NCBI GenBank assembly: GCA_017307505.1
Contig: JAFKEE010000017.1
Location: forward strand, 372,001-436,000
Origin: Acidobacteriota bacterium
GTDB lineage: Bacteria; Acidobacteriota; Terriglobia; Bryobacterales; Bryobacteraceae
Reading direction: 5' to 3'
Length of the DNA: 64,000 nt
Of this stretch, positions 21,460 to 27,539 are shown in pieces; the stretch's first letter is position 1; every line of letters starts with the position of its first letter. The notes below the pieces were generated by a model that had not been told where the DNA came from, made no database searches, and saw only the letters and a list, made by a program, of their open reading frames with translations. The position numbers and the translations under genes are program-made.

Positions 21460-23108
21460 AGCGTCTCGAACTCAAGGGTCTTCTTCAGCGGCGTCAGGCC
21501 GCAGAGGTAGACGCTGGACCCGGGCAACTTCGTCTCCGCGCCACGCACCTGGGTGTAGGTGTGCTGCGAGAAGCCGGGTCCGAAACGGATGGCGTCGTTG
21601 CCGGCGCGCGCCACGGCATAACCGTCCTTCAGCAGGAAGCCGCCAGGGACCTTGGGGGCCGCACCTACGCCTTCCACCACGGCGTTCTCCCTGAGGTTGA
21701 CCTCGATGGCCAGAGGCACTCCGGCCGTGCCCTGCGCTTCGATGTCGATCACAAAGCCCTTGGCCTTTTCGCGCACGGCGACGGTGTAGCGCAGGCGCTC
21801 GATGTTGCTTTGCTTCCTCTGCGAGCGCAGAGCCGACCACTCGGACGCCTCGACGTGGCGCGGCGGGTCGAAGGGCTGGTAGTATGGGCCCTCCAACTCC
21901 TGCGTCATCCGGTAGCCGTCCCTGGTCTTTTCATAGGACGAGGCGCGGAACTGGCCTTTGCCGAAGAACGCTGACGCGAAGCGGACGGCCTCCACCACGC
22001 ACCCGCCGTTGCGCATCGTGAAGAACCGGCTGTTGCCGTTCAGCAGGATGCTTGCACTCATGGCGCCGCGGCGGAACCTGGCGATCTTCACGGCGGGCAT
22101 GAGCTTTTCGAAGTCGTCCGGCAGGGGCTTCGAGGCCGGCAGCGGCTTCTGCAACTCCGGATAGCGCAGGTAGAACGACAACGACCCGGCCCGCTGCTCA
22201 ATGCTTCGGACGACCGTGGCGAATTGGCCGTTGTTGTCCCGGATGGCAAAGTAGCGCAGGGGGAACCAGTAGCGATCCATCCCGGCGCGGTCGTATTGGT
22301 CCTGCCGGGTGGAGATCTCGGTCACCACCTCGCCGCCTGGATGGATGAGGTAGAGCATCGCCTGGAGGTTGCGGCGCACGGGGTCCAGCAGTTCGGGCCG
22401 GCCGGTCTTAAGACCCGTGACCAGCAGGGCCTTGTCGCTGACCGTGTTGTAAACCGTAGTGGAACGCTCGTCGAACTGGCCGTCGGAGTCGATATCGATC
22501 CCCTCGGCCAGCCACTGTGCAATGCGGCGCGGATAGCTGGGATCGGGCAACAGTTCGTGGATCTGGGAGAGCGCTTCGCAAACGACCCAGCGATGATTGG
22601 GCGTATGGACGCCGCCGGTCGCCAGGGCTTTGCCGGCCTTGCGGAGGAACGGCTCCAGCGCGGCAAACATCGCCGGTTCGTTGAACTGCTTCGCGATCGA
22701 GGCCGCGCCCGCGGCGCTGTGCGTCACGAAGCCGAGGTCCGGAGTGGAGTGGAAGTTGGTGATGAGCAGATCGATAGTGCCATCGCCGTTCTGCATGCGG
22801 GTCAGGTAGCCCGCCGCCAGATGGAAGCGTTTGGCCACCTCGGCCGACTTGTGGTGCCGCGAGCCGGGATAGACATAGGCGGCGATCAGAGTGTCGCACA
22901 GGCCCGCGCCGGTGCCGGCGCTGAAGAGGCCGAACTCGTCGGCGTAGCCGCCGCGATGCGGGTCTGCCGGCTCTGTGATCTGCCGGCTGAGAATCTGGTC
23001 GACGGAGGCGTCGTGGCGGCGCACCAGGTCAGGATCGATGGATGATGTGGGCTGGGCGGCGGCCGTGGCGGCCAGCGCGGCGGTGAAGTGTCGGCGGCTG
23101 ATGGGCAT
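21456..23108 (-). CDS. Exported protein of unknown function (Tat leader, probable alpha/alpha-toroid)
   Basis: A 550-aa protein that starts MPISRRHFTAALAATAAAQ, a twin-arginine leader. The remainder up to about residue 330 is helix-rich with the spacing of an (alpha/alpha)6 barrel (YLTRMQNGDGTIDLLITNFH, TPNHRWVVCEALSQIHELL, DQYDRAGMDRYWFPLRYFAI); the last 200 residues look beta-rich. This layout recalls heparinase-type lyases or glycosidases, but I cannot name a family or catalytic residues. It is divergent from the serine hydrolase gene, with only 43 bp between the starts. Confidence 0.6.
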   Translation of the reverse strand: MPISRRHFTAALAATAAAQPTSSIDPDLVRRHDASVDQILSRQITEPADPHRGGYADEFGLFSAGTGAGLCDTLIAAYVYPGSRHHKSAEVAKRFHLAAGYLTRMQNGDGTIDLLITNFHSTPDLGFVTHSAAGAASIAKQFNEPAMFAALEPFLRKAGKALATGGVHTPNHRWVVCEALSQIHELLPDPSYPRRIAQWLAEGIDIDSDGQFDERSTTVYNTVSDKALLVTGLKTGRPELLDPVRRNLQAMLYLIHPGGEVVTEISTRQDQYDRAGMDRYWFPLRYFAIRDNNGQFATVVRSIEQRAGSLSFYLRYPELQKPLPASKPLPDDFEKLMPAVKIARFRRGAMSASILLNGNSRFFTMRNGGCVVEAVRFASAFFGKGQFRASSYEKTRDGYRMTQELEGPYYQPFDPPRHVEASEWSALRSQRKQSNIERLRYTVAVREKAKGFVIDIEAQGTAGVPLAIEVNLRENAVVEGVGAAPKVPGGFLLKDGYAVARAGNDAIRFGPGFSQHTYTQVRGAETKLPGSSVYLCGLTPLKKTLEFETL

Positions 23109-23151
23109 GGGCAGGTTCCCTGCGATTATAATGCCCGGGGAGTTTCTAACA

Positions 23152-24387
23152 ATGTTGCTAAGATGTTCCGCCGCCCTGCTGCTGTTTTCCAGCCTGATCT
23201 TTGCAGCTCCGCCTGTGCCGGATGCGGGCAAAGCGGGCCTCGACACCGCGCAGATGCAGAAGATCGCGCCGCGCATGAAGGCGATGGCCGACGCCCGGAT
23301 GGTGGCCGGCACGGTGACGCTTGTTCAGCACAACGGCGTGCTGGCTCACCTGGAGGCAACCGGTTGGGCGGACATTGAGGCGAAGAAGCCGATGCGCACC
23401 GACTCGATCTTTCAGATCATGTCGATGACCAAGCAGTTCACCGGAGCCGCCATCATGATGCTGGTGGAAGAGGGCAAGGTACGGCTGAACGATCCGGTGG
23501 AGAAGCACCTGCCGGAGTTCCGCGGCCTCTGGGTGATTGCCTCCGAAGTGGATGGCGTGCGGACCCTGCGGCGGCCGTCGCGGCCGATCACTGTGCGCGA
23601 CCTGATGTCGCACACTTCCGGCATGGGGCAGGCGGCCCCCGGCATCGGCGACATCATGGTGAAAATGGATCGCACGCTGGCTGAGGCGTGCCTGATCTAC
23701 TCCCAGCAACCGCTCGACTTCGAGCCCGGCACCAAATGGCAATATTCCAACGCCGGACTGGCCACGCTGGGCCGCATCGTTGAGGTGCAGAGCGGTATGA
23801 GCTATGAGAAGTTCCTGGAAACCAGGATCTTCCAGCCGCTGGGGATGGTGGATACCTACGTTTTCCTACCCGCCGAAAAGCACGCCCGCCTGGCGGCGCT
23901 CTATCAGAGGAAAGACGGCAACCTGGAGAAAGCAGGGGCCAACGTTCTGGGCGGAGATGCGCTGCAATTCCGGAAGGGTGCGAAGTACTCCGGCCCCGAG
24001 CATAGCCTGTATTCCACCGCCCTGGACCTGGCGCAGTGGTATCAGATGATGCTGAATAAAGGCACGCTGAACGGCAAGCGGCTGCTTTCGCCTTCGTCCG
24101 TGGAGGTCATGACAAGAGTCCATACCGGTGACTTGAAGGCCGGGCACGATCCGGGCGTCGGCTTCGGCCTCACCTGGGCAGTCGTGAAGGACCCGATTGG
24201 AACGCTCACCGGGCACAGCATCGGCACGTTTGATCATGGCGGAGCATTCGGGACCTACGGCTGGGTGGATCCGAAGAAGGAACTGGTGGGCGTGTTCCTG
24301 GTCCAGGAAGAGGACGATGCGAAGACGGTGCGCGACGCATTTATTAACATGACCAACGCCGCGGTACTCGAGTCTTCGAAACCATAG
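23152..24387 (+). CDS. Secreted class C beta-lactamase-related serine hydrolase
   Basis: A 411-aa exported hydrolase of the beta-lactamase class C/DD-peptidase/esterase group. After a signal peptide (MLLRCSAALLLFSSLIFA) come S91-M-T-K94, the YSN motif at 198-200, and the DHGGAFGTYG motif near the C-terminus in place of KTG. Such proteins more often cleave esters or D-peptides than beta-lactams. The ATG at 23152 is chosen because GGGGAG lies 8 bases upstream; another in-frame ATG is at 23131. TATAAT at 23127-23132 may be its -10 box. Confidence 0.88.
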   Translation: MLLRCSAALLLFSSLIFAAPPVPDAGKAGLDTAQMQKIAPRMKAMADARMVAGTVTLVQHNGVLAHLEATGWADIEAKKPMRTDSIFQIMSMTKQFTGAAIMMLVEEGKVRLNDPVEKHLPEFRGLWVIASEVDGVRTLRRPSRPITVRDLMSHTSGMGQAAPGIGDIMVKMDRTLAEACLIYSQQPLDFEPGTKWQYSNAGLATLGRIVEVQSGMSYEKFLETRIFQPLGMVDTYVFLPAEKHARLAALYQRKDGNLEKAGANVLGGDALQFRKGAKYSGPEHSLYSTALDLAQWYQMMLNKGTLNGKRLLSPSSVEVMTRVHTGDLKAGHDPGVGFGLTWAVVKDPIGTLTGHSIGTFDHGGAFGTYGWVDPKKELVGVFLVQEEDDAKTVRDAFINMTNAAVLESSKP

Positions 24388-24542: not shown

Positions 24543-25475
24543 ATGCATGGGGTTTGGGAATTCGTTCTGCACCACGGCTACGGGCTGATGTTTGCCGCCG
24601 TGTTTGTGGAACAACTGGGCGCGCCGGTGCCGGCCGTGCCGGTGCTGCTGGCGATGGGCGCCATGGCCGGGCTCGGATACTACTCGGTGGCGCTGAGCCT
24701 GTTGCTGGCGGTGATCGCGGCGCTGGCTCCGGACATCCTCTGGTACTACCTGGGACGCCGGCGGGGCGATTCCATTCTGGCGCTGCTGTGTAAGCTGTCG
24801 CTGGAACCCGACACCTGCGTCCGAACGACCACAGACGCTTTTGACCGCTGGGGGCCCGCCACTTTGCTGGTAGCGAAGTTCGTGCCTGGCTTGAGCACGG
24901 TGGCGCCGCCCCTGGCCGGCTCGGCGCGATTGCCTGTCGCCCGTTTCCTGGCCTTTGACGCCGGCGGATCCTTCCTGTGGGCCGGTTCCGCCCTGGCGGT
25001 GGGCTTCCTGCTGCGGCGCCGGGTGGAGCATTTCGCCGAAGCACTTTCGAATCTCGGGATGGGGCTGCTGGTGGTGGTTGGGTCGCCGCTGGCCGCCTGG
25101 ATTTTCTGGAAGCTCTGGCAGCGGGAACGGGCGATGCGGCTCTACCGGATCGCCCGGCTGCAGCCTACTGATTTAAAGGCTCTGCTGGACTCCGGGGAGC
25201 CTACCTACATCATCGACCTGCGGGGCCCCAAGGCGATCCAACGGTCGGGCTCGAAACTGCCGGGCGCGATGATGCTGCCGCAGGACGAGATCGATGTGCA
25301 CCTGCGCAAGCTTCCCGCCGGGGCGCACCTGGTTTTCTATTGCAGTTGACCAAACGAAGCATCCAGCGCCGGTCTGGCGCTACGACTCCAAAAGATGGGT
25401 TTCGCGAACGTCCGGCCGCTGCAAGGCGGCTATGATGAGTGGGTCGCTCAAGGCTATCCTGTTGATAGCCTTTGA
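24543..25475 (+). CDS. DedA-rhodanese fusion, candidate selenoprotein (in-frame TGA at 25347-25349)
   Basis: Reading through one TGA gives 310 aa. Residues 1-200 are a DedA-type membrane protein (AAVFVEQLGAPVPAVPVLLA, KFVPGLSTVAPPLAGSARLP, four or more membrane helices). From about 215 a rhodanese domain follows (PTYIIDLRGPKAI, LPAGAHLVFYCS). The TGA is codon 269, directly after YCS; the sequence resumes PNEASSAGLALRLQKMGFA and then VRPLQGGYDEWVAQGYPV, a normal rhodanese end. Homologues I recall read YCSCPNEA here, so TGA replaces a cysteine. A hairpin at 25365-25381 has loop GGTCT, as in the fdhF SECIS. The alternative is a TGC-to-TGA nonsense mutation or sequencing error. The next gene starts 9 bases after the final stop. 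Confidence 0.8.
25365..25381 (+). promoter_or_regulatory. Candidate bacterial SECIS hairpin
   Basis: AGCGCC (25365-25370) and GGCGCT (25376-25381) form a perfect 6-bp stem around the loop GGTCT (25371-25375). The loop begins at base 25 counted from the U of the in-frame TGA; in E. coli fdhF the equivalent GGUCU loop begins at base 22, as I recall. SelB reads the G-U in that loop. The hairpin lies in coding sequence, as bacterial SECIS elements do. Confidence 0.65.
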
Positions 25476-25484
25476 GGGGCTTTC

Positions 25485-27539
25485 ATGCGGACCCTTGCCC
25501 TGGTTCTAATCTTTTCCAACTTTGTTTTCGCCGGCGGTGTGACTGTTGCCTTTAATCCAACGGATCCGGCCGTCGGACCCTTTCCGTCGGACTTCATGAC
25601 AGCGCCGGACGACACGCAGAAGACAGGGCGGCGCGTGAACCTGCCGCTGCCGGACTGCGATCAGCGCTCGGGCGATTGCCAGGAGTTGACCCTCATCAAT
25701 CAACTGGACGGCTTCAATGTCCAGGCGCGCGTGATGGTGCGGTTCAATGGCGCCATCGATCCGGCGACGCTGCGCAGCGGTGTGGTGCTGGCGTGGCTGG
25801 ACGGTTCCAACCGGGTGACGGGCATCAACCGGGTGAGCTGGGATCCGGCAACGAACACCATGCTGGCCAAGCCCGATGGGCCGCTGCGGCAGGGACTGCG
25901 CTACGCGATTCTCGTGACGGACGCGGTGAAGGATCCGGACGGGGCACCGGTGATCCGCGACGAAGGCTTTCAGGCGTGTATCGACCAGCTTATTGGCGGT
26001 GTGTACTGTACGGATATCAGCCAGGCGGTTGCACTCGCCGGACAGGTGCTGCCCGGGGTGACGGTAACGGGTGGATCTGTGTTCACGACGATGACCGGCA
26101 CGACGCTGCTGGAAGCTGCACGGCAGATGATCGATCTGAGCGCTCCGGCATTTGAGCCGGTGGCGACGGTCCCGGTGCGCGAGATTCGAAGCCTGACGGT
26201 GCATGCACAGGTCCGCACCGATGGGGAGAAGTTTCAGGATGTGCCGTTCCCTGCCCCACCCGCCATTCTGGCGGTGCTGGGGGTCGACCGGATTGCCTTT
26301 GGCACTTTATCGTCGCCGCGCATGATGAGCGATCAGCAGGTGATCCCGAATACTCCGACACTGGACCCCCTGCCGAAGGAGATCCCACAGCAAAAGATCG
26401 CGTTCCATGTCCTGCTGCCGAACACGCCGATGCCGGCGGGCGGCTATCCGGTGCTGCTGGCGGCGCACGGTCTGGGAGACAACCGGTTGGCCGGCCCGTC
26501 CGTGATGGCACAGTCGTTTGCGCCGAAGGGCTTTGCCATTGTGGCGCTGAATGCCGTGGGGCACGGCTATGGTCCGGAATCGACGATCCTGATCGGCAAG
26601 GATTCCGGGGTGCAGGAAGTGCCGGCGGCCGGCCGCGGCGTCGACCTGGACGGTGATGGCGCGATCGGGCCGACGGAAGGCTGTGTCGTGCTGGTGCCCG
26701 GCGCGCCGGTTGCGATCCGCGACTGCGTGCGGCAAACGGCAATCGACTGGCTGGCGATGGCGCGGGCGATCAAGCTGGGCCTGGATGTGGATGGCGATGG
26801 ACGGCCGGACCTGGACGGGTCGAAGATGGCGTTCTGGGGGCAGTCGCTGGGCGCCTTCGTCGGGACCCTGGTGACGGCCACAAGTCCGGACATTCCCGCG
26901 GCGGTGCTGAATGTGGGCGGGGCGAGCGGCGTGGAGACGGCCCGCGTGAGTCTCTCACTGCGACCCCTGGTGCAGAGTTACCTGGGCCTGCGGGCGCCGG
27001 CGCTGCTGAACGCATTTCCCGATTATGACGAGCAGTATGTCGGCCGCGATGAACCGGTGAAGATCCTCAGCGTACCGGGCGCGGCCGATCTGAAGGACGT
27101 CTTCGAACGGTTGGAGTGGATCGAGGCGGCGGGCGCGCCTTCGACCTATGCACCGCACCTGATGACGGCCCCGCTGGACGGAGTTCCGGCCAAGCGGGTC
27201 CTGTTCCAGTTCGCGATCGGGGACCAGACCGTGCCGAATCCCTCGAACTCCCTGCTGGTGCGCTGCGCGGACGGGCAGGCAATGACCTCCATCTACCGGC
27301 ACGATCTGGCGCGCGCGCTGCGTCCTGAACTGCCGGCCAATCCGCATGCGTACTTCGCTTTCCTTTTGGACGTGAACGGGGCGCCCATCTCGCTGGCGGT
27401 GCTGGGGCAGGCCGCGAACTTCGTACAATCGGGCGAAAACGCGATTCCGGATGCCAACTACATGGTGAAGCCGTTCTTCGGCCTCGAACTGTTCGAGACT
27501 CCGGCGGTCCTGCCGGAGACCACCGGATTCCTGCAATAG
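25485..27539 (+). CDS. Exported lipase-like alpha/beta hydrolase with calcium loops
   Basis: A 684-aa exported protein (signal peptide MRTLALVLIFSNFVFA). The N-terminal third has an Ig-like fold as in bacterial virulence-factor lipases (FNPTDPAVGPFPSDFM, VMVRFNGAIDPATLRSGVVL). The alpha/beta hydrolase domain starts near 315 (GYPVLLAAHGLGDNRLAGPS), has its nucleophile in FWGQSLGA (serine about 454), and carries two DxDGDG loops (DLDGDGAIG, DVDGDGRPDLDGS) that probably bind Ca2+. It starts 9 bases after the selenoprotein candidate, with GAGGGG just upstream, so the two are likely co-transcribed. The substrate is probably an ester or lipid. Confidence 0.75.
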   Translation: MRTLALVLIFSNFVFAGGVTVAFNPTDPAVGPFPSDFMTAPDDTQKTGRRVNLPLPDCDQRSGDCQELTLINQLDGFNVQARVMVRFNGAIDPATLRSGVVLAWLDGSNRVTGINRVSWDPATNTMLAKPDGPLRQGLRYAILVTDAVKDPDGAPVIRDEGFQACIDQLIGGVYCTDISQAVALAGQVLPGVTVTGGSVFTTMTGTTLLEAARQMIDLSAPAFEPVATVPVREIRSLTVHAQVRTDGEKFQDVPFPAPPAILAVLGVDRIAFGTLSSPRMMSDQQVIPNTPTLDPLPKEIPQQKIAFHVLLPNTPMPAGGYPVLLAAHGLGDNRLAGPSVMAQSFAPKGFAIVALNAVGHGYGPESTILIGKDSGVQEVPAAGRGVDLDGDGAIGPTEGCVVLVPGAPVAIRDCVRQTAIDWLAMARAIKLGLDVDGDGRPDLDGSKMAFWGQSLGAFVGTLVTATSPDIPAAVLNVGGASGVETARVSLSLRPLVQSYLGLRAPALLNAFPDYDEQYVGRDEPVKILSVPGAADLKDVFERLEWIEAAGAPSTYAPHLMTAPLDGVPAKRVLFQFAIGDQTVPNPSNSLLVRCADGQAMTSIYRHDLARALRPELPANPHAYFAFLLDVNGAPISLAVLGQAANFVQSGENAIPDANYMVKPFFGLELFETPAVLPETTGFLQ

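Follow-up and report, generated by a model that had tools for sequence, protein, structure and literature searches.

Positions 24543-25475 (forward strand) of a 64,000-nucleotide stretch of DNA from a soil acidobacterium of the Bryobacteraceae (contig JAFKEE010000017.1, positions 372,001 to 436,000; hereafter the window) hold a single gene that joins a DedA (VTT) membrane domain to a rhodanese domain and contains an in-frame TGA at codon 269. Comparison with related loci indicates that this TGA is almost certainly decoded as selenocysteine (Sec), which would place Sec269 two residues past the catalytic Cys267 of the rhodanese active-site loop, in the arrangement C-S-U (C-x-U). Taken as a whole, the gene is best explained, with high confidence, as encoding a Sec269 selenoprotein with an inner-membrane DedA domain, which would more likely than not act as a membrane-bound persulfide or thiol redox enzyme. 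The features that bear on the selenocysteine assignment are as follows.

24543-25475, forward strand: DedA-rhodanese gene, a predicted selenoprotein of 310 residues with Sec269; true stop TGA at 25473-25475
25164-25448, forward strand: rhodanese domain, residues 208-302 (PF00581, 51.2 bits; fold match 3tp9)
25341-25343, forward strand: codon of the catalytic Cys267 in the rhodanese loop, which in alignment falls on the active-site cysteines of the solved rhodaneses 6mxv and 3tp9
25347-25349, forward strand: TGA codon 269, predicted to be read as selenocysteine; 105 TGA, 58 Cys and 6 other at this column
25365-25381, forward strand: putative selenocysteine insertion sequence (SECIS) hairpin, with a 6-bp stem AGCGCC (25365-25370) / GGCGCT (25376-25381) and loop GGTCT (25371-25375)

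A conserved TGA codon in the rhodanese active site

A preliminary description of this DNA, made from its letters alone, had traced the frame from HLVFYCS through the TGA at 25347-25349 and 41 sense codons to a TGA stop at 25473-25475, and had remarked that the part after the internal TGA reads like the end of a rhodanese. Both points hold. In the read-through product the PF00581 match spans residues 208-302 and covers profile positions 2-101 of 102; because the profile is matched to near its end, the residues encoded after the TGA form the end of the rhodanese fold. Membership in the rhodanese family is supported by profile score, by fold and by the active-site Cys267. An AlphaFold2 model of the protein (mean predicted local distance difference test score 85.8, predicted template modelling score 0.75) contains the expected helices, and in a fold search its rhodanese half aligned with 3tp9 over 105 residues (Z 14.7, root-mean-square deviation 2.1); the Protein Data Bank matches from this search concern the rhodanese half only, with the DedA half not run separately. 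Moreover, in the 39 codons after the TGA, the two closest relatives differ from the gene by 5 synonymous and 0 nonsynonymous codon changes and by 14 and 1, respectively, so the stretch downstream of the TGA is translated.

A search of 151 related genomes recovered full-length homologues in many genera. The loci compared comprise 90 extracted from related genomes and 80 organism-named loci from another collection, with partial overlap between the organisms. Codon 269 is covered in 169 loci, where it is TGA in 105, Cys (TGC or TGT) in 58, and Ser or Gly in 6, while residue 267 is Cys in all Sec and Cys loci aligned. Within the window's genus the codon is TGA in all 9 genomes searched, so that the 8 same-genus relatives, which had been suggested as a check on the preliminary description, agree with the window, and the Cys that it had expected at position 269 of homologues appears in the 58 Cys loci as YC[ST]CPNE. 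Judging from the record titles, the loci with Sec belong to Acidobacteriota, Rokubacteria, Methylomirabilota/NC10 and Myxococcota/Deltaproteobacteria, and those titled Nitrospirota, Betaproteobacteria and Verrucomicrobiota have Cys. On a quick tree built from 149 proteins, at least 16 changes between Sec and non-Sec are required, 8 of which are forced by well-supported branches; as the tree is unrooted, gains and losses of Sec are indistinguishable on it.

Some individual loci in this set deserve mention. One genome of the same genus carries a second, Cys-type DedA-rhodanese gene alongside the Sec one (L069, G006:C1:2917720-2918637). In three DedA-rhodanese paralogues that form a clade (L101, L103 and L106), residue 269 is Ser (CSS or SSS); these are probably degenerate or altered in function. 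Two loci seem to bear a wrong record title or to lie on a misplaced contig: L166, titled 'Nevskia soli', clusters with a genome of Bryobacterales type, and L141, titled 'Nitrosospira', is nearly identical to a Nitrospira sequence.

The hairpin and the selenocysteine machinery

The preliminary description had also pointed to a hairpin with a perfect 6-bp stem and a GGTCT loop at 25365-25381, which is indeed present. Considered in one sequence, such a hairpin is weak evidence, because a comparable structure follows 42 of the 1644 TGAs in the window (about 2.6%). Comparison across loci is what decides the matter, and by it the hairpin qualifies as a SECIS element. Each of 92 distinct Sec sequences can form the inner three stem pairs, 99% of them form the fourth pair as well, and the third loop base is always U or G. 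G occupies the second position of the loop in 92 of 92 Sec sequences but in only 32 of 56 Cys sequences; of these 56, the innermost stem pair forms in 54%. The hairpin is thus kept, with its conserved loop G, in Sec loci and has decayed in Cys loci, in support of the SECIS reading proposed earlier.

As this stretch also encodes protein, synonymous codons were compared at the same residue between Sec and Cys genes. At Ala+7, GCC is used in 89 of 89 Sec genes as against 22 of 50 Cys genes (p=5e-16, Fisher), and at Ala+10, GCG is used in 84 of 89 as against 28 of 52 (p=2e-8, Fisher), although both p-values are too small, since relatedness among the loci is ignored. At Arg+8, CGC is found in 0 of 81 Sec genes and in 12 of 32 Cys genes. 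Four control codons off the stem (Pro+1, Ala+4, Thr+5 and Leu+13) revealed no difference between Sec and Cys genes, and elsewhere in these genes GCC and GCG occur at similar frequencies (1368 and 1269). Compensatory changes are also found: three related loci (L096, L097 and L100) have AGCACC..GGTGCA, in which A to T and A to V replacements keep the pair, and L127 has AGTGCC..GGCACT, in which a C-G pair is exchanged for T-A by synonymous changes alone. A search of the region against Rfam returned nothing relevant, bacterial SECIS elements being too variable for one model.

The preliminary description had named the genes for selenocysteine synthesis and insertion as a further check, and all of them are present in the host assembly (9.39 Mb, 99.93% complete). 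Only matches above curated cut-offs were counted, because weak matches to models of this machinery are common in control genomes. The genome contains a tRNA-Sec (70.9 bits) whose anticodon is tca, and profile searches identified SelA (494 bits), SelB (357 bits) and SelD (349 bits). The SelD gene (L020, G000:C3:161903-162808) also has one in-frame TGA, with a GGU-loop hairpin about as far downstream of it as in the DedA-rhodanese gene, and SelD is on this basis itself a predicted selenoprotein.

Some observations weigh against decoding of the TGA as Sec. Taken singly, the hairpin has an ordinary folding energy (z -0.12), the codon statistics are overstated as noted above, and some TGA-bearing draft genomes (e.g. 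G004, G007 and G026) have no SelB above the cut-off, an absence that we take, without proof, to reflect missing contigs. If TGA 269 were an ordinary stop, the gene would either yield a truncated DedA protein with a partial rhodanese or else be a pseudogene or contain a sequencing error, and TGA does serve as a stop elsewhere in the host genome, the end of this very gene included. Yet the TGA stands at one column in 105 loci from several phyla, purifying selection acts on the continuing frame, conservation of the hairpin is restricted to genes with the TGA, and the full Sec machinery is present, all of which makes an ordinary stop extremely improbable. Every one of the 105 Sec genes has exactly one in-frame TGA in its aligned region, and the gene in the window ends in a normal TGA stop; on these grounds pseudogene, sequencing error and general reassignment of TGA were rejected as explanations. 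Sec at position 269, in a C-x-U pair beside a membrane domain, as first proposed, is therefore supported, and none of the findings that might have overturned it, such as a genome lacking the Sec genes or close relatives with TGC and no hairpin, was encountered.

Possible roles of the DedA-rhodanese protein

The DedA half contributes the following features.

24627-25001, forward strand: VTT/DedA membrane domain, residues 29-153 (PF09335, 38.7 bits; cut-off 33.9), helical in the AlphaFold2 model
24789-24791, forward strand: codon of Cys83 (TGT), Cys in 163 of 163 aligned loci covering the position
24816-24818, forward strand: codon of Cys92 (TGC), Cys in 160 of 163 loci
24876-24896, forward strand: K112-F-V-P-G-L-S118, tip of the second re-entrant helix, in place of the usual R-x5-R (PMC10127716 and comparison with a paralogue)

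The PF09335 score lies above the gathering cut-off and places the protein in the DedA/VTT family. The original account of the protein as a DedA-rhodanese fusion stands, and is extended here by the conserved cysteine pair 83/92, which it did not mention and which two other DedA proteins in the host genome lack over the region that could be aligned. Cys92 is missing from 2 of the 5 loci that have lost residue 269 too, versus 1 of the 158 that keep it, a hint, from very few and related sequences, that the two losses go together. Helix count and positive loops suggest that the rhodanese domain and the Cys83/Cys92 loop both face the cytoplasm.

Based upon these features, we propose the following mechanism. 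SelB with Sec-tRNA(Sec) would bind the hairpin at 25365-25381 and decode the UGA at 25347-25349 as Sec, and the TGA at 25473 would terminate translation. In the protein, Cys267 would take up sulfane sulfur as a persulfide, or become otherwise oxidised (for example to a sulfenate), and Sec269 would resolve it via a Cys-S-Se-Sec bond. The reduced form could then be restored by a dithiol, for which Cys83/Cys92 of the DedA domain are candidates, or else by thioredoxin; the DedA domain lacks a key residue of the undecaprenyl-phosphate flippases. Persulfide or redox chemistry at the C-x-U site Cys267/Sec269 is somewhat more likely than not; that the Cys83/Cys92 pair takes part in the same relay is a tentative suggestion. 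Equally speculative is the broader proposal of a widespread and so far undescribed class of membrane selenoenzymes in which the conserved cytoplasmic pair Cys83/92 of DedA exchanges electrons or sulfur with the rhodanese C-x-U; if it is true, DedA would be a partner in redox exchange and not simply a lipid flippase. Gene context counts somewhat against the mechanism, as no conserved neighbourhood was found: any one family adjoins the gene in at most 8 of 80 loci, and the families that do recur near DedA-rhodanese loci are lineage-specific. In the absence of a recurrent neighbour, gene context yields no functional partner, and the neighbours neither support nor contradict the mechanism proposed above.

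Two other roles for the DedA domain have to be considered. It could import selenite, thiosulfate or a similar anion, with the Sec-rhodanese as cytoplasmic acceptor of the entering sulfur or selenium; Sec insertion would be the same, and only the role would differ. Known selenoproteins include a form of the YeeE/YedE thiosulfate transporter family (PMC13188914), and the DedA tip residues depart from the flippase pattern, but the gene has no conserved neighbour that would suggest uptake of sulfur or selenium, and the organisms with Cys versions live in very different ways. We regard import as rather unlikely. Somewhat less likely still is that the DedA domain flips a lipid carrier while the rhodanese acts as a redox sensor that toggles it, the C-x-U bond being the switch. 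DedA proteins of COG0586 are undecaprenyl-phosphate flippases, rhodanese fusions are recorded within COG0586 (PMC10127716), and the family retains Glu23 in most loci and K112 in all (163 of 163). Against this, Asp51 and Arg136 (YghB numbering), described as essential in undecaprenyl-phosphate flippases (PMC10127716), correspond to Val32 and Ser118 in an alignment with a paralogue from the same genome, and across the loci position 118 is mainly S, N, G or A. A redox enzyme with a C-x-U active site remains our preferred account of the protein.

Relation to known families

The closest described relative of the rhodanese half is NCBIfam NF041203, rhodanese_LYCAU, a rhodanese-related (seleno)protein ('rhodanese form 3', CxU; PMC13188914), in which Sec likewise stands two residues after the rhodanese Cys. 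NF041203 is the best NCBIfam match for 27 of 27 members of the DedA-rhodanese family scanned, and the family has its C-x-U/C-x-C active-site motif. However, NF041203 is a stand-alone model of 126 positions, whereas here the rhodanese sits behind a DedA membrane domain, and its domain scores 84 bits (79.5 bits in the genome search), below the cut-off of 115. Two further loci contain rhodanese frames with YCTUP at the active site (L109:501-833 and L111:501-812, open frames of 146-148 residues with no DedA part matched) that reach 107 and 101 bits against the same cut-off; these are likely to be further C-x-U selenoproteins just below it.

Other relatives resemble the protein in part. The Cys form annotated in Proteobacteria as 'DedA family protein/thiosulfate sulfurtransferase GlpE' has the same full-length architecture, with 34-40% identity, but residue 269 is a conserved Cys wherever Cys loci were aligned, no hairpin is conserved, and the annotation is that of an ordinary protein. 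TsoB (NF045694), a rhodanese/DsbD fusion-like selenoprotein, likewise combines a rhodanese with a membrane redox domain and Sec; unlike in the DedA-rhodanese proteins, its two Sec are spaced as UxxxxU and its membrane part resembles DsbD (PMC13188914), and its model matches only 4 of the 27 members, weakly. With the COG0586 flippases the protein shares the VTT fold, the re-entrant helix motif and the recorded rhodanese fusions (PMC10127716), but it lacks the Arg136/Asp51 equivalents and has two extra conserved cysteines as well as Sec.

DedA-rhodanese fusions have been mentioned before, with the link between the two domains called unclear (PMC10127716). The 119 families of prokaryotic selenoproteins inventoried in 2026 include no DedA or VTT entry (PMC13188914), and our literature search found no paper joining selenoprotein, rhodanese and DedA, in keeping with the earlier remark that no described DedA selenoprotein was known. 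That novelty extends to the DedA fusion but not to C-x-U rhodaneses themselves, which NF041203 already covers; what is new is the fusion to DedA of a selenoprotein type already described, and no new principle is involved. The prokaryotic set gains a membrane selenoprotein that is common yet has been overlooked, with more than 100 genes in our sample, mostly from Acidobacteriota, and read with the standard code its genes would end early, at the TGA. The family offers a handle on two questions, namely why DedA and rhodanese are fused and what C-x-U rhodaneses do, and its natural Sec/Cys pairs, swapped many times on the tree, permit direct tests of selenium's contribution.

In the window, the gene is flanked by a beta-lactamase-fold serine hydrolase (22975-24387) and a large alpha/beta-hydrolase-like protein (25485-27539), which are not kept beside it in relatives. 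A contig from the IMG/VR collection (L205) carries the start of a DedA relative at its end, with 38% identity over residues 1-218; this partial match, the one found among viral contigs, is probably host DNA.
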